Shown here: positions 27,135-56,770 of the stretch, piece by piece | Numbering within the stretch: position 1 is the first letter of the stretch | Layout: the number at the start of each line of letters is the position of its first letter | Assembly (NCBI GenBank): GCA_029098225.1 | Contig: JAQXNX010000032.1 | Span: forward strand, 62,001 to 126,000 | Direction: 5' to 3' | From: Spirochaetales bacterium | GTDB taxonomy: Bacteria; Spirochaetota; Spirochaetia; Treponematales; Treponemataceae | Length of the DNA stretch: 64,000 nucleotides | Notes under the pieces: generated by a model | Seen by the model: only the letters and a program-made list of their open reading frames with translations | The model's database searches: none | Told to the model about the DNA's origin: nothing | Made by a program: the position numbers and the translations under genes

Positions 27135-29519
27135 TTACAGACTATCTAATTCTTCATATTCCTGTGCAAAACCAGTAAGAGAGAAATATGTCTTATTTTT
27201 CTGCTGGATTTGCTTTTGCTCAACTTCAGAAACTTCTGAAAGAACTTCGAGTTCTTCTTCTGTCTTAACGGCAGCAGACTGCTTTTCTAAGAAAGGAGGA
27301 ATAAAAACTGTAAAATCGTAATCAGCTGTAGAATTGCGGGAAACATATCCTGTACCAATTCCAAGCGGTTCAGCAAAAAGATTTTCTACAGTTGCAAAGT
27401 CTTCGCCAGGGAAATATGAATCATTATCCCCCGGATGATATTCATATCGGTAATTATTTCCCAGCGCCATTATCTGCGCTTTAAAATTTTCATCTGCTGA
27501 ATTTTCATCACTGACGTTTTCTTCTGCCTCTTCTAATTCTTCTACTTCTTCCAGATCCTCAACGTCTTCAACTTCTTCTGCTTCTTCAATCGGTTCTGCA
27601 TCGTCCAACTCTTCTACCGGTTCAGCATCTCCAAGATCCTCAACGTCTTCAGCATTTTCAGTCGCTTCTATATCTTCAACCGGCTCGGCATTGTCCAGTT
27701 CTTCTACCGGCTCAGCATCTCCAAGATCTTCAACGTCTTCAACTTCTTCTGCATCTTCAATAGGTTCTGCATCGTCCAAATCTTCTACCGGCTCGGCATC
27801 TTCAAGATTCTCAACGTCTTCAACAGCTTCAGCATCCTCAACAGGTTCTGCATCGTCTAGTTCTTCTACCGGCTCGGCATCTTCCAGATTCTCAACATCT
27901 TCAACAGCTTCAGCATCCTCAATCGGCTCGGCATCATCTAATTCTTCAATCGGCTCTGCAGCATCTAATTCTTCTGCATCATCAATTTCTTCTACACTGG
28001 CGGCAGGAACCTGAACAGGAGCCTTCTGAGCTTCTGCAGCTTTAATTCTTTTTGCCGTAGACACTTCGGTCAAAACTTCATCAAGCATTTTACGGATTTC
28101 TGCAAGCAGAAGAGAATTATCCTGTACTGCTGAATTTGTATTCTGGATTACTGCGCCATCAGTTGATTTTTCTTTATCAGAATTATTATCTGCATTCACT
28201 TTTCTTTCATTTCCAAGAGCGCTGAATATTTCTTCCCAGCTCTGATCTAAAATCAAATCAAGCTTTTTCTGCTTTTTCTTTGAATGCACATTCAAGCTTT
28301 TTAAAATATCTGTAGATAAATCTGCCTTACGTGATTTTAATTTCTTAACAATTTCATAAAAATCAAGAGTTTCGTTCTTTTCCAGATATTCTTCTATAAT
28401 TTCCAGCTGAAGCTTTTTTACCCTTTTTTGCAGGACAAGCTCAGGATTTCTTTTAAAGCTGAAAATTAAAAATATAACCAAAAAGATTGTAATAAATGTG
28501 CTTATATAAATTAAAAGCTTTAATTCATCCGTTAATTCAAACAGCTCGCTTGAATATAATCCACTAAAATAAAATGAATTCTGAAGCGAACTGTTTATAA
28601 TTACAAGAAAATGAGAATCATCCAGCTTTGCTATTTTTTCTGGTGCATCAAAAACACCAAATTTTTTTGAACGAATCAGACTGAACGAAGATGCATCGGC
28701 ATCAAGTTTTTTTGCATCACTTTCTTTTTTCCAGAAATCAAGAATTTTATCCTTTATCTGAGAAAAATATCCATCCGGGAAATTTGTTATAAAGCCGCCG
28801 GAAAGATTCTGGTCATCAGAAATCATTGCAAAATTCTGACTTTGAGCAATTAAATTTTTATCAGCCAGAGATTTTTTTAGCTTAGTAAAATCTATATAAA
28901 AAATTGCCGCGCCTGAATAAATTCCATCTATCCAGTAAAATGGAATAGAAATTATAATTTCATTTCTCTGAGAATCAAAAAGAACCTTTGATTTATCTTC
29001 ATAAGAATTTTTAGAGATTAAGTCGAACGCAAGGATATCTGCATCCTTCTGGACATCAGGATAATTCTTGTACGTTTTAGAAATTCCGTTTTGAGTTAAA
29101 ATATCTGTATCATCAAACGTAGAAAAATGGATGATTCTTGCATTCCGATCTACAATTCTTATGCCTTTTAATTCAGGAATATCATAAAAAAGCTTTTCTG
29201 TCAGCCTGCGGCGTTCTACTGTATCAGCTTCGGACGGATTTTGAACGTAATAGCTTCTTACGGAAGCATTTTTGATATAAGGATCTTCACCTTTTTCTAT
29301 TATATTGAGAACATCTTTTATGTAATTTTCTATGCTGGTAGAAATTTCGTCTAACTGATCCGTTTTTTCCTGAATTTTGCTCTGCGAATAAAAATCAGCT
29401 TCAATTTCTGAAAATAACGAAGTATGAAGCAGCAGCGCCGCAAATGCAAACAGAACCAGTGAAAACAAAAAACTAAAAGCAACTTTCTGGCCAGAAGTCA
29501 TTTTAATATTTATCGGCAT
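27135..29519 (-). CDS. Membrane protein with Cache-like periplasmic domain and acidic tandem repeats
   Basis: This 794-residue protein has a membrane segment at about 10-32, a periplasmic domain of about 300 residues (patterns like LKGIRIVDRNARIIHFST and GAAIFYIDFTKLK fit a double Cache sensor), and a second membrane segment near 333-352. A basic helical cytoplasmic part follows. Residues about 505-665 are acidic tandem repeats with a 27-residue unit (DAEPVEELDDAEPVEDAE...). The C terminus is Asp/Glu-rich with a hydrophobic end. There is no kinase, MCP or GGDEF domain, so how a signal would be passed on is unclear. The start codon has TATAAT almost touching it; a second ATG lies six codons in. 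Divergent from hflX. Confidence 0.65.
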   Translation of the reverse strand: MPINIKMTSGQKVAFSFLFSLVLFAFAALLLHTSLFSEIEADFYSQSKIQEKTDQLDEISTSIENYIKDVLNIIEKGEDPYIKNASVRSYYVQNPSEADTVERRRLTEKLFYDIPELKGIRIVDRNARIIHFSTFDDTDILTQNGISKTYKNYPDVQKDADILAFDLISKNSYEDKSKVLFDSQRNEIIISIPFYWIDGIYSGAAIFYIDFTKLKKSLADKNLIAQSQNFAMISDDQNLSGGFITNFPDGYFSQIKDKILDFWKKESDAKKLDADASSFSLIRSKKFGVFDAPEKIAKLDDSHFLVIINSSLQNSFYFSGLYSSELFELTDELKLLIYISTFITIFLVIFLIFSFKRNPELVLQKRVKKLQLEIIEEYLEKNETLDFYEIVKKLKSRKADLSTDILKSLNVHSKKKQKKLDLILDQSWEEIFSALGNERKVNADNNSDKEKSTDGAVIQNTNSAVQDNSLLLAEIRKMLDEVLTEVSTAKRIKAAEAQKAPVQVPAASVEEIDDAEELDAAEPIEELDDAEPIEDAEAVEDVENLEDAEPVEELDDAEPVEDAEAVEDVENLEDAEPVEDLDDAEPIEDAEEVEDVEDLGDAEPVEELDNAEPVEDIEATENAEDVEDLGDAEPVEELDDAEPIEEAEEVEDVEDLEEVEELEEAEENVSDENSADENFKAQIMALGNNYRYEYHPGDNDSYFPGEDFATVENLFAEPLGIGTGYVSRNSTADYDFTVFIPPFLEKQSAAVKTEEELEVLSEVSEVEQKQIQQKNKTYFSLTGFAQEYEELDSL
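27530..27980 (-). repeat. In-frame tandem 81-bp repeat coding acidic 27-residue units
   Basis: About five copies of an 81-nt unit lie inside the preceding membrane protein gene. The unit encodes 27 residues starting DAEPVEELDDAEPVED. Copies differ by a few substitutions and one has a short in-frame extension. All preserve the reading frame, so copy-number changes would shorten or lengthen the protein without breaking it. Confidence 0.8.
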
Positions 29520-34953: not shown

Positions 34954-37900
34954 ATGGAAAAAAATCTGATTTTGACAAAAGCTCAGAATGCTGTTCTTGC
35001 GCATGACTGGTCTACAGCAGCTCGTCTTTACAAAGACTTATTAAAGACAGATGCTTCGAATGTTGATTACTTAAAGGAACTGGGAAGCATTTATGTAAAA
35101 GCTGGAGAAGACGAAAAAGCAATTCCATATTATGAGCAGATAATTACATTTTATCCTCATTATATTGAAGCAATGAACAGTCTTGGAGCAATTTATCGAA
35201 GACTTAAAAGATATGATGAATCTATTCAGATTTTGCAGCGCGCTCTAGAAGAAAATCGCGATGTTCCAAGTGTAAATTATAATCTTGGCTTTACATATAA
35301 AGAAATGGGAAATTACGAAGACGCTATTGATTCCTTTGAGTCTGTAATTTCTGAAAATCCTGATGATGTTCTTGCCTACAACCATCTTGGTTCTATTTAT
35401 CTGGCACAGAAAAATTATAGTAAGTCGATTACTTCATATAAGAGAGGACTTCAGGTAGATCCAAATCATCCTATTTTAAATTACAATCTTGCCCGCTGTT
35501 ACGAAGAAGCTAAAAGCTATCCTGATGCTATACGTTGTTATGAAATTGCACTTAAAACAAGGCCAGGCTGGACTGATGCAATTCAGGACTTCAGCAGGCT
35601 GCTGGTAAAATGTCAACTTACAAAACAGGCTCAGGATATTGTTGAACAGTCTATCAAGCTGCATCCGGCAGATTCAGGACTTTTATATTTACTCGGCGAT
35701 ATTTATCTTAACCAGTTTGATTATGACAATGCTTCAAAAACATTTACTAAGGCAGAAAAAATTGATCCGAACAATGTAAGAATTCTTACAGGCTTAGCAC
35801 AAGCTTTGGAAAATGGAGACAAGGTTGAGCTTGCTCTGGATAAAATTCTTGCTGCAATGGAAAAAGAACCTGAAAACCGTGATATTAAAAAACAATATGT
35901 ACATACACTTTTAACTGCACAACATTATGATCAGGCTTTGGATCATGTAAAAGAACTCTACGAAAATGACGGCGAAAAAGATCTTCAGGTTTTGGATTTA
36001 TATGGTCAATATTATATTTGCCGTGGTGATGATCAGGCAGCAAATTTTTACTATGACAAAATTAAAAAAATAAATCACACATACCGTGATTACATGTTAG
36101 GTGCTGCTAACCGCTACGTTCAAACAGGAAACTATGATAAGGCAGAAGAAATTGCAAAATCTTATGTTTCGAGAAATGAAAATAATCAGGTTGGACATAA
36201 CACTCTTGGAAAAATTTATGAAAAGCAGGGAAATTTTGAAAAGGCAAAATACGAATATTCCCGCGGAACTTCTCCACAAAATCCTAATGCAATAGCAATA
36301 AAAGGAATTAAAAACGCAGAGCTTGAACTTGAAAGAAATCCGGTTTCACCTTCTCCAGTAATTGAAGCAACAAATGTTGAAGCTCAAATTTCTGATGATA
36401 CACCACAGACTGAAGAAAAAACAGAAGCAGAAGAAACAGCTGTTTATTCAGGCTCAAATTTTCCTCCTCACCTTGAAGCAGAAGAATCGGATATTTTTGC
36501 AGAAGACAAAGTTCCGGGAAGTGAAGATGAACCTGAAGAAGAAAATCAGGATGAAGAAGAGAAAGAAAATACAGAACTTTCCGGACTTGCAGAAGGCGTA
36601 GACCGCACAAAATATGGAGACAATCTCCCACTTTCTGATGCGCTTGTAGAAGATGATGCAGACTTTTGGAGCGAGTTTGCTGATGATGCAGATAAAGCAA
36701 ATCCATTTGAAGACAACGGAACAAATAATTCAGAAGAAAAATCTGATTCCACAGAAGATAACTATAATCCATTTGATGACTCTCAATTTGATGATCCGAT
36801 AATTGAAGAACCAAAATTTCAGTTTACACAAGAACCTGCAGCTCAGGAAGAAATGGAAGAAGAAATTCCTGCTCCAGTTCCTCCAGTTGAACAGGCTGCT
36901 CCAAAATCAGTTCCTCAGGCTGCACCTCAGCCGGCTCCTTTTGCACAGCCATATATGCAGCCGGAAAAATCAGAATATGAAAGACAGCTGGAACAGAAGC
37001 TTCAGGAAGCAACAATGAATTCTGCAGAACATGCATTGCAGACAGCCTTAAATACTCAAAAAATTGCTCAGCAGATGCTTGATGAACAGAAACGACTTTC
37101 AGAACAATTTGAACAGGAAAAGGAACAAATTAAGGCAGAAAGCGAAAAACTGATTTTAGATACAATTAATAAAAAAATGGAAGAGAAAAATCAGGAGGCA
37201 CAGAACATGGCAGAAGAAAAACCGACAGAAGAAACTGCCGCAGCAGAAGACTTTATTGCAGAGCCTGAATTCGATGAAGAAATTCCTGCAGAAGAGGAAG
37301 CTTCTGCCACTGATGAACAAATTTCCGATGAAGAAGAAATTCCTGCAGACAGCGCAGAAGAGGATATTCCTGCTGAAGAAGAAATTTCTGCAGACAGCGC
37401 CGACGAGGATATTTCTGCCGAAGAAGATATTCCCGTAGAAGAGGAAGCTCCTGCCACTGATGAACAAAATTCCGATGAAGAAGAAATTCCTGCAGACAGC
37501 ACTGAAGAGGATATTTCTGCCGAAGAAGATATTTCTGCCGATGAGGAAATTCTCGCAGACAGCGCCGAAGAAGATATTTCTGCCGAAGAGGATATTCCTG
37601 CAAATGAAGACACGTCTGCCATGGTCGAAGAAATTCCAGGCACAGAAAATATTCCAGAAGAAGACGACTTTGACTCTGTAGATGAATATGCTGCTATGGC
37701 AAAGGCTTCAGATATGCCGCAGGAAAATGCGACAATTAAATTTGAAACTTTACCTTCTGCAAAGGGACCTGTTGATGAAGAACCATTCCTTACAGTTGAT
37801 GAAATTTTAAACGGAACTGATTCTTCTGACACAGAAGAAATTCTCGCAGACAGCGCTGAAAAAGAATTTTCTGCTGGTGATGAAATTCCTGCCGGAGAAG

Positions 37901-38685
37901 GCATTCCTGCCATGGAAGACACAATTGCCGGAGAAGAAATTTCTGCCGTAGAAGACACAATTGCCGACGAAGAAATTCCTGATAACGGAGAAGAAATTCC
38001 TGCCGTAGAAGACACATCTGCCGGTGAAGAAATTCCTGATAACGAAGAAGACACATCTGGTACAGCAGAAGAAATTCCTGCTGAAAATGAAGCATCTGAC
38101 TCAGAAAACATTTCCGACGAAGTTTCTGTAAACTACGATATTGATGAAGATAAATTTCTTAGCACCGAAGAACTCATTCAGGCGCAGGGAGAACTTGTTA
38201 AGCAGGAAAAACTCCATGACTATCTTGAAAATTCAAATGACGCTTCTATCGAAATGCTGGGAAAAATAGAGCAGATTCTCAGCAATCAGGACATGTCAAA
38301 AGAATATGCAGAACAGATTGAACTATTTAAAAAGCTTAGAACCCTAAGTACTTTCCTTCCGGAAAAAGAAAGAAACAGTGTTTTCTCTTGCAAAATTAGA
38401 GTAATGATTGAATATGTTATTTCTAAAATGTCTGGAAGGCCAGGTTTGCTTATGACTGCAGAAGAACTGATAAAATCAGGAGTCCTTGGAGCCGAATATG
38501 ATGACCGATTAACAGTTCAATCTAACAAAGAGCTTACAAATGAACTGATTAAAGAAGTGCTTCAAAATATGAAGATTCTTGCACAGGACCTTGAAGATAA
38601 AGAGCTTTCAAAATCTCTTATAATCAGTGCAGACGGAATCCTTGAACAAATTGATTTGATTAGTCAGAAAGGAGAAATCTTTTAA
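34954..38685 (+). CDS. TPR protein with long acidic low-complexity region
   Basis: This 1243-residue protein has no signal peptide. Residues 1 to about 450 form roughly eleven TPR units (repeated YNLGxxYxExGxYExAIxxFE-like pattern). Residues about 460-1060 are extremely Glu/Asp/Ala-rich with degenerate repeats of IPADSAEEDISAEEDI type, plus a Gln-rich coiled-coil stretch near 675-745. A conserved helical domain closes the protein (about 1065-1243). A GAGGGG ribosome site lies about 9 nt before the ATG. Its stop abuts the stop of the converging lipoprotein gene. A scaffold or adaptor function in the cytoplasm is inferred. Antiparallel Ser-rich frames in this region are shadows of the acidic repeats. 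Confidence 0.7.
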   Translation: MEKNLILTKAQNAVLAHDWSTAARLYKDLLKTDASNVDYLKELGSIYVKAGEDEKAIPYYEQIITFYPHYIEAMNSLGAIYRRLKRYDESIQILQRALEENRDVPSVNYNLGFTYKEMGNYEDAIDSFESVISENPDDVLAYNHLGSIYLAQKNYSKSITSYKRGLQVDPNHPILNYNLARCYEEAKSYPDAIRCYEIALKTRPGWTDAIQDFSRLLVKCQLTKQAQDIVEQSIKLHPADSGLLYLLGDIYLNQFDYDNASKTFTKAEKIDPNNVRILTGLAQALENGDKVELALDKILAAMEKEPENRDIKKQYVHTLLTAQHYDQALDHVKELYENDGEKDLQVLDLYGQYYICRGDDQAANFYYDKIKKINHTYRDYMLGAANRYVQTGNYDKAEEIAKSYVSRNENNQVGHNTLGKIYEKQGNFEKAKYEYSRGTSPQNPNAIAIKGIKNAELELERNPVSPSPVIEATNVEAQISDDTPQTEEKTEAEETAVYSGSNFPPHLEAEESDIFAEDKVPGSEDEPEEENQDEEEKENTELSGLAEGVDRTKYGDNLPLSDALVEDDADFWSEFADDADKANPFEDNGTNNSEEKSDSTEDNYNPFDDSQFDDPIIEEPKFQFTQEPAAQEEMEEEIPAPVPPVEQAAPKSVPQAAPQPAPFAQPYMQPEKSEYERQLEQKLQEATMNSAEHALQTALNTQKIAQQMLDEQKRLSEQFEQEKEQIKAESEKLILDTINKKMEEKNQEAQNMAEEKPTEETAAAEDFIAEPEFDEEIPAEEEASATDEQISDEEEIPADSAEEDIPAEEEISADSADEDISAEEDIPVEEEAPATDEQNSDEEEIPADSTEEDISAEEDISADEEILADSAEEDISAEEDIPANEDTSAMVEEIPGTENIPEEDDFDSVDEYAAMAKASDMPQENATIKFETLPSAKGPVDEEPFLTVDEILNGTDSSDTEEILADSAEKEFSAGDEIPAGEGIPAMEDTIAGEEISAVEDTIADEEIPDNGEEIPAVEDTSAGEEIPDNEEDTSGTAEEIPAENEASDSENISDEVSVNYDIDEDKFLSTEELIQAQGELVKQEKLHDYLENSNDASIEMLGKIEQILSNQDMSKEYAEQIELFKKLRTLSTFLPEKERNSVFSCKIRVMIEYVISKMSGRPGLLMTAEELIKSGVLGAEYDDRLTVQSNKELTNELIKEVLQNMKILAQDLEDKELSKSLIISADGILEQIDLISQKGEIF

Positions 38686-51119: not shown

Positions 51120-51698
51120 AACTGACTGAATTAAAACGCTGTTCTTATAAATAAGCTTTAATGAAAAAAATGGAGAGTTAGAAAAAACTAACTTAAGGAA
51201 AATTTCATCGCCTTCCCAATGTGGAAGCTCATTCATTTTTGAAATTTCAACCCACTCAAGCTCGCCTTCATCGCAGTCATTTTTCAATTCGCCCGAAAAT
51301 TTTCTTACGCGAAATACGTGCATAAATTCTGTATAAGAGTTTTCGGAAAACCGGGGTGTTACGGGGGCGTTTATCTGATTGTGTTTTCCCCCGTTAGAAA
51401 GGGGTGTGTCTAAAACCGCCTGCGGGTTTAGACCAGGGGAAAGGCTTTTCCCCTCCTTTAAATCTACAAAGGTTACAATTCCACAATATTCAAGATCTTC
51501 ATGTAAAAGCTCAAGGCCTGTTTCTTCTTTTACTTCGCGGATTACACAGTCCTGAGGACTTTCACAGTTTTCAAATTTTCCGCCGATGCCAATCCACTTA
51601 TCATGATTATAATCATTTTCTTTTTTTGTCCGATGCAGCATTAAAACTTTATCTTCTTTTTGTATATAACAGATTGTCGTGTTTACCAGAGTTTTCAT
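51111..51698 (-). CDS. NUDIX hydrolase with in-frame repeat insertion
   Basis: This 195-residue enzyme should hydrolyse nucleotide or related diphosphates, with a MutT/YtkD-like layout. The Nudix box is intact at residues 40-62 (G..E46...REVKEETGL). After FVDLKE (about residue 80) there are about 35 unusual residues (Gly/Pro/Ser/Asn-rich, roughly 83-117) before the family resumes at EFMHVFRVRKFSGEL. The DNA of this stretch is a GC-rich palindromic repeat. The gene starts in a 4-bp ATGA overlap with the response regulator stop, so it is the third gene of the kinase operon. Confidence 0.75.
   Translation of the reverse strand: MKTLVNTTICYIQKEDKVLMLHRTKKENDYNHDKWIGIGGKFENCESPQDCVIREVKEETGLELLHEDLEYCGIVTFVDLKEGKSLSPGLNPQAVLDTPLSNGGKHNQINAPVTPRFSENSYTEFMHVFRVRKFSGELKNDCDEGELEWVEISKMNELPHWEGDEIFLKLVFSNSPFFSLKLIYKNSVLIQSVLN
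51350..51455. repeat. GC-rich palindromic element inserted in coding sequence
   Basis: The plus strand reads GGGGGCGTT..., TTTTCCCCCGTTAG, GGGGTGTG, a central TCTAAAACC...GGGTTTAGA hairpin, then CAGGGGAAAGGC and TTTTCCCCTCC. The order of blocks matches the reverse complement of the element at 45389-45480 with changed hairpin arms. It encodes part of the NUDIX protein in frame. Confidence 0.75.
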
Positions 51699-52444
51699 TT
51701 ATTCACCTTATATAAAATACTTGGTCTTCCGCCTGTACTGTAATTTATATCTTCTTTAATAATTTTTTTCTGTACAAGATAATTCATATAAGTTCTTACT
51801 GTTACAATTGAAATTCCAATTGCATCAGAAATCATATCTACAGTATTCCATTCTGTATTTTTATTAAGATATGATTCAATAAGTAAAAGTGTTTTTCGCT
51901 GAATTCCTTTTGGAAGAGTTTCTTTTCCTAAAAGCGAATTTATAGATAATGTTTTTTTGCCGTCCTCTTCTGATGAAGAAGAATCCTGAACTTTTCCCTG
52001 CACAGCCGCAGCAGAATTTGAAATTAAGCTGTCTACACAATTCTGATCCATAACAGGATTTTCTTTTAACAAAGATTTTTTTGCGGCAAATTTTTCCAGA
52101 GAAACATTAAAGCGTTCAAAATTAAATGGCTTAATTAAATAATCAAGAACGCCAAGATGAACAGTTTCTTCTATCGTTTGTGTATCATTTGCTGCAGTTA
52201 CCATAATTACTTCTACAGCAATTTTTAATTCACGAATTTTTTTTAAGGTTTCAGTTCCTGTCATAACCGGCATATAAACATCAAGAAGTACAAGATCAAC
52301 AGAATTTTCCTGTAAAAAAGTAATTGCTTCCTGTCCGTTCCTGCAATTTCCTGCTACAACAAAGTCTGGATTTTTTGCAACATACTGACTATTTATCATT
52401 GCGACCATCGGATCGTCTTCTACAATCAAAACATTGTAACTCAT
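51695..52444 (-). CDS. Response regulator, CitB/DcuR type
   Basis: This 249-residue protein has a receiver domain with Asp10/Asp11, phospho-acceptor Asp55 (LVLLDVYMP) and Lys105 (DYLIKPF), followed by a C-terminal winged-helix/HTH segment (IGISIVTVRTYMNYLVQKK). It belongs to the citrate/C4-dicarboxylate-sensing CitB/DcuR group. It lies 1 nt after the kinase gene and overlaps the NUDIX gene by 4 bp. Confidence 0.9.
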   Translation of the reverse strand: MSYNVLIVEDDPMVAMINSQYVAKNPDFVVAGNCRNGQEAITFLQENSVDLVLLDVYMPVMTGTETLKKIRELKIAVEVIMVTAANDTQTIEETVHLGVLDYLIKPFNFERFNVSLEKFAAKKSLLKENPVMDQNCVDSLISNSAAAVQGKVQDSSSSEEDGKKTLSINSLLGKETLPKGIQRKTLLLIESYLNKNTEWNTVDMISDAIGISIVTVRTYMNYLVQKKIIKEDINYSTGGRPSILYKVNK

Positions 52445-52445
52445 A

Positions 52446-53696
52446 TTATTTTTCTAACCTGACCATAAAGCAGGTTCCTCTACCCTCTTGAGATTCATAA
52501 GAAATATGACCACCCATACTTTCTACCAGCTGCTTTGTATGGTAAAGGCCAATTCCTCTTTCGGACCCCTTTGTTGAAAAGCCCTTTTCAAAAATTTTAT
52601 TTCCAATTTCTTTTGGAATTCCTCCACCGCTGTCTTTAACTGTTATTAAAAGACTTCCCGGTTTTGTATAAACGCCAAAAATCAGTTCTTTTACTTCATC
52701 AAAATTATGTTCTTTTAAGTTCATTTCATCAAGTGCATTATCAATTAAATTTCCAGTAATTGTTACAAGAGCTTCAGAAGGAACATCTATATCTCTGCTT
52801 CTAAAACAGATTCCATCCTGCAGAATAAATTTTACGTCACATTCAGAAGCCCGTGCGATCTTACCTACTATCAAAGCAGCAAAGGAAGGATTTTCTATTG
52901 AGTTCATTACACTGTGAATTGTCTGCCCCTGAATCATGCTTATACTCTGAATATAAGAGGCTGCCTTCTCATATTCACCAATCTGAATCAAGCCTAAAAT
53001 TACATGAAGCTTATTTGTAAAATCGTGATTATTTGCGCGCATTGAATCTACAAGAATTTTTGTTCCCTCAAAATCTTCTGTAAACAATAAAAATTCTTTT
53101 TTAATCTTTTTAGAAATAACAAAACAAATCATTATTTCTATTAAAATTGCAAAAAGTGTTACAAAGAAAAATAAAGATAAAATTCTTAAAGAAACAGTTG
53201 TCATAGAAGTTTTTAAACAGATTGTCATTATAAAGCCGCAGTATCTTCCATACTGATCATAAACGGCTGAATAAGTTCTTCGCTGCGGACCAGAAGGTCC
53301 AATATCATTTTCTGTATAAAACCTTGTTGTATGAATAGAAAAATCAGGAATGGTACCGTCGTATTTTGTATTAATTAATTCATGATGAGTATGATAAACA
53401 CGATTTAAATCCTTATCGACTATAGAAATAATATCTACTTCTGAAAGCTCGGAAACAACATTATCCATATATGAACAAATTTCTTCCTGCGAATATTGTC
53501 TTATAAAGCCGTAAATCCTTGTAATTAAATCTGATGTATTTTGAAGATTCTGATTAAAATCTTTTTCCATGGAATTTAAATTAATAAAGGCTCCGCCAAG
53601 ACTCATAAGAACTGTAATTGAAATAATAAGAATAAGCTGAATTTTCTGAATCTCTTTTCGTAATAAATTTAAATTCCCTGATTTTTTACCTTTCAT
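52446..53696 (-). CDS. Sensor histidine kinase, CitA/DcuS type, lacking cytoplasmic PAS
   Basis: This 416-residue kinase has two membrane helices (about 17-38 and 168-193) enclosing a periplasmic domain of about 130 residues. The His224 box (RANNHDFTNKLHVI) matches the SpoOB-type site of DcuS/CitA, followed by N-box TITGNLIDNALDE and G boxes (VKDSGGGIP, SERGIGLYHTK). After the second helix there is no cytoplasmic PAS domain, which most CitA/DcuS kinases have. GAGG precedes the ATG. It is co-transcribed with the regulator that follows. The ligand could be a carboxylate but is not determined. Confidence 0.85.
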   Translation of the reverse strand: MKGKKSGNLNLLRKEIQKIQLILIISITVLMSLGGAFINLNSMEKDFNQNLQNTSDLITRIYGFIRQYSQEEICSYMDNVVSELSEVDIISIVDKDLNRVYHTHHELINTKYDGTIPDFSIHTTRFYTENDIGPSGPQRRTYSAVYDQYGRYCGFIMTICLKTSMTTVSLRILSLFFFVTLFAILIEIMICFVISKKIKKEFLLFTEDFEGTKILVDSMRANNHDFTNKLHVILGLIQIGEYEKAASYIQSISMIQGQTIHSVMNSIENPSFAALIVGKIARASECDVKFILQDGICFRSRDIDVPSEALVTITGNLIDNALDEMNLKEHNFDEVKELIFGVYTKPGSLLITVKDSGGGIPKEIGNKIFEKGFSTKGSERGIGLYHTKQLVESMGGHISYESQEGRGTCFMVRLEK

Positions 53697-53849
53697 AAAA
53701 TCCTCACATGAAACTCTGCATCAAAACGCAGAATACCCCAAAACAATTATAATTTTTATTTAAAAAAAAATCGCCTTTTGAAAGTTAAAAAAATTTTTTG
53801 TTTATTAATTTGTTAATACTTTCTAAACATTTTCTTTTCTTTCAAAAAA

Positions 53850-53877
53850 TTGTATTTATTTTTCATCGCGCTATAAT
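53850..53877 (+). promoter_or_regulatory. Promoter of the PQ-loop/SGNH gene
   Basis: TTGTAT (53850-53855), a 16-nt spacer and TATAAT (53872-53877) precede the gene. The predicted leader of about 60 nt contains a GC-rich stretch around 53896-53925 and an AGGAG site 7 nt before the ATG. Confidence 0.6.
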
Positions 53878-53945
53878 GCAGTCATAAATTAAAAAGACCG
53901 AGGCTTGCGCGACCGCTACCGCGGAGGTTTATAAGGAGTTTTTGC

Positions 53946-54914
53946 ATGAATTTTGCACATTTATTTGAAGCATCAATGTTGATTTGTTTTGGTTTTTCCT
54001 GGCCTTTAAACGTAATAAAGGCTTACAAGGCTCGAACCGCAAAAGGAACCAGCCTTCCATTTATCATTCTTATTATTACAGGGTACATTGCTGGAATTAC
54101 AGCAAAAATTATAAATGGACAATTCAATTACGTACTTGCAGTTTATTTTATTAATCTTGCAATTGTAATGATGAACATTTTTATTTACATAAGGAATAAA
54201 TCTTTGGACAAAAAAGCCGCACTTGCAAATGAATTAAAAGTTTCAAAGATAAATATAAAAGGAATTGAAGAAAAGGAGGATGTTATGACAAATTACACAA
54301 ACTCATTGGATGAATTAATCAATAGAAAATCAAAGGCTATTGAAAAGAAAAATGCAGTTATTCTTTTGGGAGGCGCAAAAGACATGGATATCCCTGTTGC
54401 AAATCTCGCAAAAGATTTCAACTTTAATTTCCCAATCTACAATAAGAGTGAGAAAAATCTTTCGGTTTCTTCCATTATGGATTTCTATTTGAATAGAATT
54501 GAAGCTTCTAAACCGGAAGGAATCTTGATTCATCTTGGAGAAAATGACACTTCTCTCTTTACAAGCGATCCATCCAGCTTTGATAACTATTATCTGAACT
54601 TTATTGAATATCTTAAGCGCGCAAATAGAACTTGCAGAATTGCAGTTGTTTCTGTCGACAATCAGAATAACGATAAAACATTAAAGCTTATGAATGCACA
54701 CATAAAAGCAATTGCCGAAGCAGAAAAAGTTTCTTTCATCAGTCTGGAAAATGCTAAACTCTGGAATCCGGAAGCTACAAAAGCTGCAAGCGAATTTGCA
54801 TACAACATGGGACTCAAAATCAGAAAACCATTACGCGATGTAGCAGAAATATTATACAGCTATGCATATAACAATGTTGTAGAAATCGATCATTCTGAAA
54901 ACAAAACCGCATAG
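53946..54914 (+). CDS. PQ-loop/SemiSWEET-like domain fused to an SGNH-like domain
   Basis: This 322-residue protein starts with three membrane helices (about residues 1-86) and a PQ-loop-type phrase FSWPLNVIKAYKARTAKGTS, typical of SemiSWEET transporters. A Lys-rich linker follows, then a soluble domain (about 115-315). It has ILIHLGENDTSLF (His196, Gly198, Asn200, Asp201), matching block III of SGNH hydrolases. The first SGNH block is degenerate (LLGGAKD instead of GDSL). An internal ATG at 54285 (Met114) is preceded by AGGAGG. The gene is divergent from the kinase operon. Function unknown; lipid or sugar modification is possible. Confidence 0.65.
   Translation: MNFAHLFEASMLICFGFSWPLNVIKAYKARTAKGTSLPFIILIITGYIAGITAKIINGQFNYVLAVYFINLAIVMMNIFIYIRNKSLDKKAALANELKVSKINIKGIEEKEDVMTNYTNSLDELINRKSKAIEKKNAVILLGGAKDMDIPVANLAKDFNFNFPIYNKSEKNLSVSSIMDFYLNRIEASKPEGILIHLGENDTSLFTSDPSSFDNYYLNFIEYLKRANRTCRIAVVSVDNQNNDKTLKLMNAHIKAIAEAEKVSFISLENAKLWNPEATKAASEFAYNMGLKIRKPLRDVAEILYSYAYNNVVEIDHSENKTA
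54274..54287 (+). promoter_or_regulatory. Strong internal ribosome binding site and start codon
   Basis: AGGAGG (54274-54279) is followed after 5 nt by an in-frame ATG (54285). It would yield a 209-residue soluble SGNH-like protein, 54285-54914, in addition to or instead of the fused form. Confidence 0.65.
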
Positions 54915-54947
54915 AATAAAACAGCACAAAAAGAATCACATACCCCT

Positions 54948-54988
54948 GACCGCCGTTTGAATCGACTCTTGAACGGCGGTCTTTTTTT
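54948..54988 (+). terminator. Intrinsic terminator after PQ-loop/SGNH gene
   Basis: A 10-bp stem GACCGCCGTT / AACGGCGGTC with a 14-nt loop is followed by seven T residues. Confidence 0.9.
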
Positions 54989-55010
54989 GTAATTAAATGT
55001 AACTTAATTA

Positions 55011-55034
55011 TGCGGCATTATTTGTGCGGCATTA
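55011..55034. repeat. 10-bp direct repeat upstream of HD-GYP promoter
   Basis: TGCGGCATTA occurs at 55011-55020 and 55025-55034, 14 nt apart start to start, just upstream of the -35 box at 55049. The spacing suggests a regulator binding site, but the bound protein is unknown. Confidence 0.45.
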
Positions 55035-55048
55035 ATTATCTGCCATCA

Positions 55049-55077
55049 TTTACAAAAATAAAAATATGGCCGATAAT
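55049..55077 (+). promoter_or_regulatory. Sigma70-type promoter giving a predicted leaderless mRNA (HD-GYP gene)
   Basis: TTTACA (55049-55054), a 17-nt spacer and GATAAT (55072-55077) end 7 nt before the ATG at 55085. Confidence 0.6.
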
Positions 55078-55084
55078 TAAATAA

Positions 55085-56770
55085 ATGGAAAAATTTTATT
55101 CAACGCTTTTTTTTATTTCTTGTCTGCTGGCAGGAATATATATAATATTATGGCGTAAACGCTATAGCGTATATTTTACTTTAATTTTTATTCTGATACC
55201 GCTTGCAATACGAGGATATATCCTTAAAGAAAATGCAATAATTCTGCCGCAGGCAATAAGTGGATTAATACTAAATTTTTGCGGTGGACTATTTCTATTG
55301 CTTTTTATAATGTATGCAATTTTTGATTTATGTAATCTGAAGACAAATAAAAAATTACGTACATCTTTATTCATTCTTTCTTCTTTAATGTGCATACCTA
55401 TTATTACGATAGGACATGGAACTATTTTTTATAAAAGCATTAAGTTAGTCTTCAATAACGGAGTTCCCACAGTCATAAAAGAATACGGATTTTTTCATAC
55501 AGTATATTATGTTCTAATAATTTTATATCTGCTTGTTACTATAGGAACAATAATTTACAGTCTTAAAAAGAAAAATGACGTTTCTGTAAAGAATTTAATT
55601 ATTCTTCTGCTTTGCGAATTTCTTACAGCTATTTTTTATCTTTCTAAACGATTTTTAAATTTACAGATTGAACTGGCTCCACTAGGTTATGTTTTTAGTG
55701 AAGTAATTTTTCTTATTATTATTCAACGATTGTCTCTATATGATGTTTCTGAAAATGCTATAGACACAATTGCAAGAGATGGAGTAACAGGCTTTATTTC
55801 TTTTGATAAGAATTTTATATATATAGCATCAAACTCTCTGGCAAAAAATATTTTTCCTGAACTTAAAGAAATAAGAATTGATTCAAAGGCAAATAAGAAT
55901 GAAAAAATAAACATAGAATTAATTTCCAGAATCCTTGATTTCCTTGAAGATAGTTCTAAAGATCATTTTTTTAAACAGTATGAAGAAAAAATATATCAGA
56001 TAAATATTAATTATCTTTATAACGGAAAGAAAAAATCAGGCTACTTAATTTATATTACTGATGACACTCAGGATCAAAAATATATATCTTTGATGAAAAC
56101 TTTTAATGAAAGGCTTCAAGCCGAAGTTTCTCAAAAAACTGAGCACATAATTGATATGCACAATCAGTTTATTATGGGAATGGCAACTATGGTAGAAAGC
56201 CGTGATAATTCAACTGGCGGTCACATTAAGAGAACAAGTCAGGGCGTAAAATTTCTTATTGAAGAAATTGTCAAAAAGAATGAATTTAATCTCTCTGAAG
56301 AATTCTGCAAAAATATAATAAAGGCTGCTCCAATGCATGATCTTGGAAAAATAGCTGTTGATGATGCCATTTTAAGAAAACCCGGAAGATTTACAGATGA
56401 AGAATTTGAAAAGATGAAGCTTCATGCTTCAGAAGGTGCAAAAATTGTACATGAGATATTAAAGAATACAGAAGATGAGAACTTTAGAATTCTTGCAGAA
56501 AATGTAGCACATTATCATCATGAACGCTGGGATGGAACAGGGTATCCGGAAGGCTTAAAAGGAGAGCAAATTCCTCTGGAAGCCAGAATTATGGCAATTG
56601 CAGATGTCTATGATGCACTTGTAAGCAAACGCGTTTATAAAGAAAGCATGAGCTTTGAAGCTGCAGATAAAATAATTATGGAAAGTTTTGGCAAACACTT
56701 TGACAAAGCTCTGGAGCCATATTACATTGCAGCACGTTCTAAGCTGGAAGAATATTATTCCGGTTTATAA
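55085..56770 (+). CDS. HD-GYP cyclic-di-GMP phosphodiesterase with N-terminal membrane domain
   Basis: This 561-residue protein has about seven N-terminal membrane helices (residues 1-220, histidine-kinase 7TM-like), a PAS-like stretch (about 230-335) and a C-terminal HD-GYP domain. His418-Asp419 (MHDLGKIAV), HYHHERWDG and Gly486-Tyr487-Pro488 (DGTGYPEGL) are intact, so it should cleave cyclic di-GMP. It is followed by the GC-rich repeat region. Confidence 0.88.
   Translation: MEKFYSTLFFISCLLAGIYIILWRKRYSVYFTLIFILIPLAIRGYILKENAIILPQAISGLILNFCGGLFLLLFIMYAIFDLCNLKTNKKLRTSLFILSSLMCIPIITIGHGTIFYKSIKLVFNNGVPTVIKEYGFFHTVYYVLIILYLLVTIGTIIYSLKKKNDVSVKNLIILLLCEFLTAIFYLSKRFLNLQIELAPLGYVFSEVIFLIIIQRLSLYDVSENAIDTIARDGVTGFISFDKNFIYIASNSLAKNIFPELKEIRIDSKANKNEKINIELISRILDFLEDSSKDHFFKQYEEKIYQININYLYNGKKKSGYLIYITDDTQDQKYISLMKTFNERLQAEVSQKTEHIIDMHNQFIMGMATMVESRDNSTGGHIKRTSQGVKFLIEEIVKKNEFNLSEEFCKNIIKAAPMHDLGKIAVDDAILRKPGRFTDEEFEKMKLHASEGAKIVHEILKNTEDENFRILAENVAHYHHERWDGTGYPEGLKGEQIPLEARIMAIADVYDALVSKRVYKESMSFEAADKIIMESFGKHFDKALEPYYIAARSKLEEYYSGL

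Follow-up and report, generated by a model that had tools for sequence, protein, structure and literature searches.

Comparison of related loci supports the view that a merged gene in rumen and gut Treponema makes a free second protein besides the joined one. The gene was studied in the window, the whole 64,000-nt stretch of DNA analysed here, where it joins a PQ-loop-like membrane part through a linker to a domain with the SGNH fold. Within the linker are a Shine-Dalgarno sequence (SD) and an in-frame ATG and, as far as sequence comparison can tell, selection is preserving this start signal of a former second gene inside the fused one. Taken as a whole, the locus is probably an operon whose two genes have fused and yet continue to function separately. 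Ordinary annotation gives one 322-aa protein, and so the predicted second product would be missed.

The fused gene and its relatives

The features of the locus are collected in Table 1. An AlphaFold2 model of the fused protein (pLDDT 88 overall) has long helices at residues 3-29, 37-56 and 62-104, a disordered stretch at 105-120 (pLDDT < 50) and, over about 134-312, an SGNH fold predicted with confidence, and Pfam matched both parts, each below its gathering score only. The model and these matches bear out the in-frame fusion of a three-helix part to an SGNH-like soluble domain proposed in an earlier, sequence-only reading, which had also placed AGGAGG and ATG (54274-54287) on the domain border; both do sit in the linker. 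No match was returned by an NCBIfam profile search with the fused protein, by a search of a plasmid collection, or by an Rfam scan of 53600-55200. The transcript is probably monocistronic, since a terminator-like hairpin and T run lie just downstream of the gene. Positively charged loops mark the cytosolic side of membrane proteins (the positive-inside rule), and the TM1-TM2 loop and the segment behind TM3 carry positive residues here, which suggests a cytosolic C-terminus, so that the SGNH domain of the full-length protein is predicted to face the cytosol.

Table 1. Features of the fused gene and its upstream region, in window coordinates
Feature	Position	Strand	Remarks
DcuR-like response regulator	51695..52444	-	NF007750 E 1.6e-48, below cut-off
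DcuS/MalK-like sensor histidine kinase, divergent	52446..53696	-	NF008298 E 1e-58, below cut-off
Operator-like box 1, CTTTTGAAAG	53775..53784	.	genus consensus CTTTTNNAAGTAAAAA
Operator-like box 2, CTTTCAAAAAATTG	53839..53852	+	sole exact copy in genome
Likely promoter, TTGTAT-N16-TATAAT	53850..53877	+	inferred; read from sequence and conserved TAT-AT consensus
SD for full-length start, AAGGAG	53933..53938	+	anti-SD pairing -8.8
Fused ORF: PQ-loop-like membrane part, linker and pseudo-SGNH domain	53946..54914	+	322 aa
Three-helix PQ-loop/SemiSWEET-like part, residues 1-104	53946..54257	+	AlphaFold2 helices, sub-threshold Pfam PQ-loop, stand-alone homologues across phylum
Linker, about residues 105-133, housing the internal initiation site	54258..54344	+	pLDDT < 50 at 105-120; little conserved save SD and ATG
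Internal SD, AGGAGG	54274..54279	+	in-frame codons AAG GAG GAT
Internal in-frame ATG, Met114 (codon 114), within linker	54285..54287	+	5 nt after SD
Predicted free soluble form, pseudo-SGNH	54285..54914	+	209 aa; separate gene in relatives
SGNH-fold core	54345..54881	+	Ala144 at nucleophile, Ser168 replacing Block II Gly, Asn200 kept, without Block V DxxH
Hairpin and T run, intrinsic-terminator-like, directly 3' of fused gene	54948..54981	+	

Of 200 genomes of the genus, 131 gave a match. Parsing gave 84 fused loci and 34 with two adjacent genes (split), a tally in which the window's own gene and a few of the split loci figure twice and the frameshifted gene of T. berlinense counts as one 'split' locus. 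These adjacent pairs answer a check suggested by the sequence-only reading, namely whether related genomes carry the two domains as separate genes. Intergenic distances in these pairs span -4 to about +114 nt; a good SD of its own usually precedes the second (SGNH) gene. Among the best matches listed for a phylum sample of 393 genomes, the pair, split or fused, was confined to the window's own family; outside it mainly the PQ part was seen, with no SGNH gene beside it, in the few outside loci read, and rarer cases are possible. Related loci occur in T. bryantii NK4A124, in T. berlinense, and in rumen and horse-gut Treponema assemblies. Many of the genomes are metagenome assemblies, and the fused state recurs in dozens of these and in one isolate; in T. 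bryantii (NK4A124), a cultured species, the gene is fused and its internal site reads AAGGAGG...ATG.

A quick tree of 111 loci, made from both domains with the linker omitted and rooted at the midpoint, has in its best form two changes between the split and fused states. Split loci lie on both sides of the midpoint root. Clade A holds 71 fused rows and is sister to four split loci, clade B holds 11 rows, and linker length differs between these clades. On this evidence the ancestral state appears to be the split one, and fusion is more likely to have happened twice than once, with a single fusion origin not rejected (p-AU 0.18). The loci would then display an evolutionary path, from separate genes to overlapping genes, to a fused gene with an inner start, and finally to a fused gene in which the inner start has been lost; this path shows how one gene may come to make two proteins, and offers natural controls on each branch.

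Reduced forms were also seen. The SGNH part of T. berlinense (L023 and L201) is frameshifted and shortened, with the PQ part intact. A natural core-less form is present in two genomes (L020:1303-1827, - strand, and L094:3001-3525), in which the PQ part is kept, most of the SGNH core is deleted and the tail downstream of it, DFAYCMGL..., is retained.

Conservation of the internal start site

In the window gene, the internal SD is predicted to pair more strongly with the anti-SD (-11.6 kcal/mol) than the SD of the full-length start does (-8.8). As a control, 2036 ATGs lying in frame inside other long ORFs, of the window and of related loci, were scored; pairing of -9 kcal/mol or lower was found at 0.6% of them, and -11.6 was reached at 0.1%. 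Another ATG, at 54280, is out of frame. Predicted RNA folding leaves the internal start slightly more open than the gene average (0.59 vs 0.49 unpaired), a difference so small that accessibility adds little to the case.

Across the relatives, an internal SD of -9 kcal/mol or lower is present in 63 of 83 fused genes. In 50 genes of clade A, GGAGG and ATG stand at 1.9-2.0 bits and linker third positions mostly at 0.1-0.6 bits. The Glu within the SD is encoded by GAG in 49 of 49 cases, against 0-17% GAG at eight further Glu positions that are conserved in these genes, and the Lys by AAG in 33 of 33, against 21-70% AAG at other Lys residues, the codon controls likewise being drawn from the window and related loci. 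Clade B forms its SD from other residues (AGG AGG, as Arg codons; AAG GAG; AGG GGG) and provides a second case, with synonymous P values of 0.004-0.06, the lowest of them 0.004-0.009. By these measures the in-frame SD and start at the domain border are conserved beyond chance, the pattern by which a gene within a gene would be recognized.

The internal SD and ATG might nonetheless be an unused relic of the former second gene, only the full-length protein being made. The site clearly derives from the start of a separate gene, and some fused genes manage without it. Decay would be expected of a relic and is indeed seen in several lineages, yet synonymous third positions are fixed in the 50 diverse clade-A genes, and clade B keeps its SD strength through changed amino acids; we consider a relic unlikely.

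Alternatively, AGGAGG could act as a ribosome pause that helps helix 3 enter the membrane or the two domains fold, an idea in keeping with its position only a few codons past the last predicted helix. Pausing would need no ATG, yet the ATG at its fixed spacing is equally conserved, and what happens in genes that have lost it bears on the matter directly. All 50 genes with the internal Met use GAG for the SD Glu; genes without the ATG often retain the Glu pair, coded GAA GAA (L046, L061, L062, L012, L015, L077 and others). The counts, 50 GAG with Met versus 10 GAA and 1 GAG without, give a Fisher value of 1e-10, with relatedness ignored and with a search pattern that hit a non-homologous Glu pair in two genes, L015 and L077; the homologous site is GAA in both. 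Because Glu is kept and its SD codon relaxes once the start is gone, initiation can be separated both from protein constraint and from ribosome pausing, and the pause explanation is scarcely credible.

A working internal start is the most probable reading. The second, free soluble form proposed in the sequence-only reading gains strong comparative support from the conserved site, the synonymous-codon selection, the disappearance of SD and ATG together, and the separate gene in relatives; absence of the site from close relatives, which had been named as the finding that would speak against it, did not occur. The free form would be dispensable in eleven fused genes of one subclade and in four others, since a good internal site is absent there, and two genomes without most of the SGNH core, together with the frameshifted SGNH part of T. 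berlinense, also count against a need for it. Nested among fused genes without the usual site, the subclade L081-L086 has a different strong site, GAGGAGGTCTTTATG, nearer the membrane part, which is possibly a regained internal start.

The membrane part and the pseudo-SGNH domain

When searched alone, the first part matched Pfam PQ-loop with E 0.0035 and 17.5 bits against a cut-off of 22, and the best split relative (21.6 bits) is below this as well. Its resemblance to a three-helix repeat lies in the number and length of the AlphaFold2 helices, not in a fold match; the structural matches shown span only residues 130-313, so that the lack of a SemiSWEET among them does not bear on the PQ part. 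SemiSWEETs act as sugar-transporting dimers with a Trp/Asn pocket, and the alignment that phmmer gave to one of them, 4x5m, was weak (E 0.064). Of the Pro-Gln motif in TM1, Pro20 is kept and the Gln is Leu (SWPLN). Stand-alone homologues of the PQ part occur across the phylum. The type of regulator beside the gene hints, weakly, that a carrier of this kind would have a carboxylate rather than a sugar as substrate.

The second part matched Pfam Lipase_GDSL_2 (E 1.2e-5, below the gathering score), and its predicted structure has the SGNH alpha/beta/alpha fold. Foldseek and VIA-align found TesA, acetyl xylan esterases and sialate O-acetylesterase, the alignment to acetyl xylan esterase having Z 14.9 and rmsd 2.9 over 143 residues. 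Block III (GEND) is present and Block I (GGA) degenerate, just as the sequence-only reading had it. The catalytic residues tell of extensive loss. At the nucleophile position the window protein has Ala144; Ser stands there in 24 of 82 fused genes, and the column across 111 rows is mostly T, S, G, A or N. The Block II Gly of the oxyanion hole is Ser168 in the window and Ser in 111 of 111 rows. The Block III Asn is Asn200 in the window, yet is found in just 31 of 82 fused genes, and the Block III Asp is nearly invariant. For the Block V DxxH, no D..H occurs within the C-terminal 60 residues of the domain in the window, and across the 111 rows DxxH is absent from the correct place, the few D..H strings elsewhere being scattered. 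Measured against the definition of SGNH hydrolases (PMC9487903), the domain has the SGNH fold but is not an SGNH hydrolase.

Could the domain still work in the cytosol as an esterase or acyltransferase whose active site is atypical, coupled to transport? The fold matches esterases, the nearly invariant Block III Asp and the Asn of the window protein are in its favour, and active SGNH proteins may miss single elements, SpOatA having Ser for the Block II Gly and PatB1 being without the Block III Asn (PMC9487903). What is seen here goes further, with a variable nucleophile column, Ser in Block II everywhere and no positioned DxxH, and the joint loss of nucleophile, acid and base is incompatible with the known mechanism. 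No active SGNH case with all these elements missing together was found in the open literature. An atypical enzyme is highly improbable, and the reading as an active esterase was rejected on the active-site columns.

It is most likely, then, that the SGNH fold is used without catalysis. Ser168 and Asn250 are present in every row and Lys294-Pro295 in every fused gene; the domain must do something, as it is well conserved despite the lost catalytic residues. In L205, a split relative from another genus, Block II (NRGISG) is more typical, and the comparison points to descent of the pseudo-SGNH domain from an active enzyme. Between the two options raised earlier, non-enzymatic use of the fold is supported by the missing nucleophile Ser, Block II Gly and DxxH; a coupling of sugar movement with ester chemistry found no support, given the missing catalytic residues, the predicted cytosolic location of the domain, and the failure to find a full PQ motif or a link to sugar.

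Divergent regulator, proposed mechanism and comparable systems

The divergent kinase and response regulator upstream of the fused gene fall short of the NCBIfam cut-offs (DcuS, 199 of 520 bits; DcuR, 165 of 262 bits), and are called DcuSR-like, not DcuSR; the matches to DcuS-type models extend over the kinase half only. A divergent kinase of this type precedes the pair in 83 of 94 clade-1 loci, whether the two genes are split or fused. A second, all-split clade (L025, L026, L027 and L108-L128) has a divergent LysR-type regulator at the kinase's place in 20 of 24 loci, and four genomes (G017, G083, G124 and G142) carry a LysR-type second copy of the pair alongside the clade-1 copy.

A search with CTTTTNNAAGTAAAAA and CTTTCNAAAAATTG, allowing at most two mismatches each, located two boxes, mostly 45-49 nt apart, between the kinase and the PQ-SGNH gene (53697-53945 in the window). 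Both boxes occur at 76 of the 84 loci with a kinase, at 9 of the 16 that have no kinase next to the gene and at none of the 24 in the LysR-linked clade, and we read them as the putative operator of a dedicated two-component system. When box 2 was used to look for further regulon members, one exact genomic copy was found, and one-mismatch matches were at background level. The likely promoter of Table 1 was not listed by a consensus promoter scan.

These observations can be assembled into a proposed mechanism. The ancestral pair would have been a two-gene operon for a small three-helix membrane protein of PQ-loop type and a catalytically dead cytosolic partner with the SGNH fold. With the separating stop lost, the joined frame would have come to enclose the ribosome-binding site and start of the second gene, both of them kept. 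Initiation at 53946 would then give a membrane protein that holds its tethered pseudo-SGNH domain in the cytosol, and initiation at 54285 the identical domain in free form. The two forms probably assemble, the free one adding cytosolic copies of the partner or exchanging with the tethered one, and the role of the pseudo-SGNH partner is most likely regulation or sensing, not ester hydrolysis. Transcription is probably set by the divergent DcuSR-like system via the conserved two-box operator.

Genes within genes that depend on an internal translation start have been described for SctQ/YscQ-SpaO (PMC4295842, PMC13059759), Cas10d/Cas11d and Cas11b (PMC11899642) and RpnL/RpnS (PMC10327210), and in SctQ/YscQ the internally started fragment is required for assembly (PMC4295842). 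As in SctQ/YscQ-SpaO, Cas10d/Cas11d and RpnL/RpnS, a single ORF with an in-frame internal start is predicted to supply its C-terminal domain both tethered and free; unlike in those systems, the long form is a membrane protein, and the short product is a prediction from sequence. An origin by operon fusion is visible here because the gene for the short product is still separate in relatives. A gene within a gene arising in this way appears to be new, and the domain pair was not found described in open papers.

The membrane part resembles SemiSWEET/PQ-loop (MtN3) transporters (4X5M; PMC4309421) in its three predicted helices of the right length, its weak PQ-loop match and its conserved TM1 Pro, and differs from them in lacking the Gln of the motif, in scoring below the Pfam cut-off and in having a C-terminal soluble partner. 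Surveys of SemiSWEETs report fusions among SWEET units (PMC5972207, PMC5742349), and neither mentions lipase or Treponema in its text. With SGNH/GDSL hydrolases (TesA, acetyl xylan esterases, and the sialate O-acetylesterase 6njc/6xpm) the second domain shares the fold over about 140-150 residues (Z 13-15); unlike them, it has no nucleophile, Block II Gly or DxxH, and is predicted to be cytosolic and membrane-tethered. It would add a conserved bacterial family that keeps the SGNH fold without its catalytic residues. The OSK domain of Oskar has no catalysis and binds RNA. It is SGNH-like and of bacterial ancestry (PMC7250577), and was likewise recruited into a fused protein, in an unrelated context; the SGNH protein of the split relative L205 matches OSK weakly (E 5e-4). 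The kinase and regulator are like DcuSR/DpiBA in matching DcuS/MalK and DcuR models and unlike them in the sub-threshold scores, the match of the kinase half only, and the probable target, which is the PQ-SGNH gene.

A bolder proposal, possible rather than probable, is that a PQ-loop carrier with a dedicated dead SGNH subunit, tethered and free from one fused gene and under its own two-component system, represents a new class of regulated small carriers, and a case in which operon fusion, and not a new start in an old gene, created a gene within a gene, perhaps twice.

Elsewhere in the window, two other genes have acidic repeats. A 1243-aa protein (34954-38685) begins with TPR-like repeats in its N-terminal part and has a long acidic stretch encoded by tandem DNA repeats, with EEIPAEE-like units at 37272-38080, and a 794-aa membrane protein (27135-29519) has an acidic repeat region, EDAEPVEELDDAEP..., encoded by DNA tandem repeats at 27519-27993.
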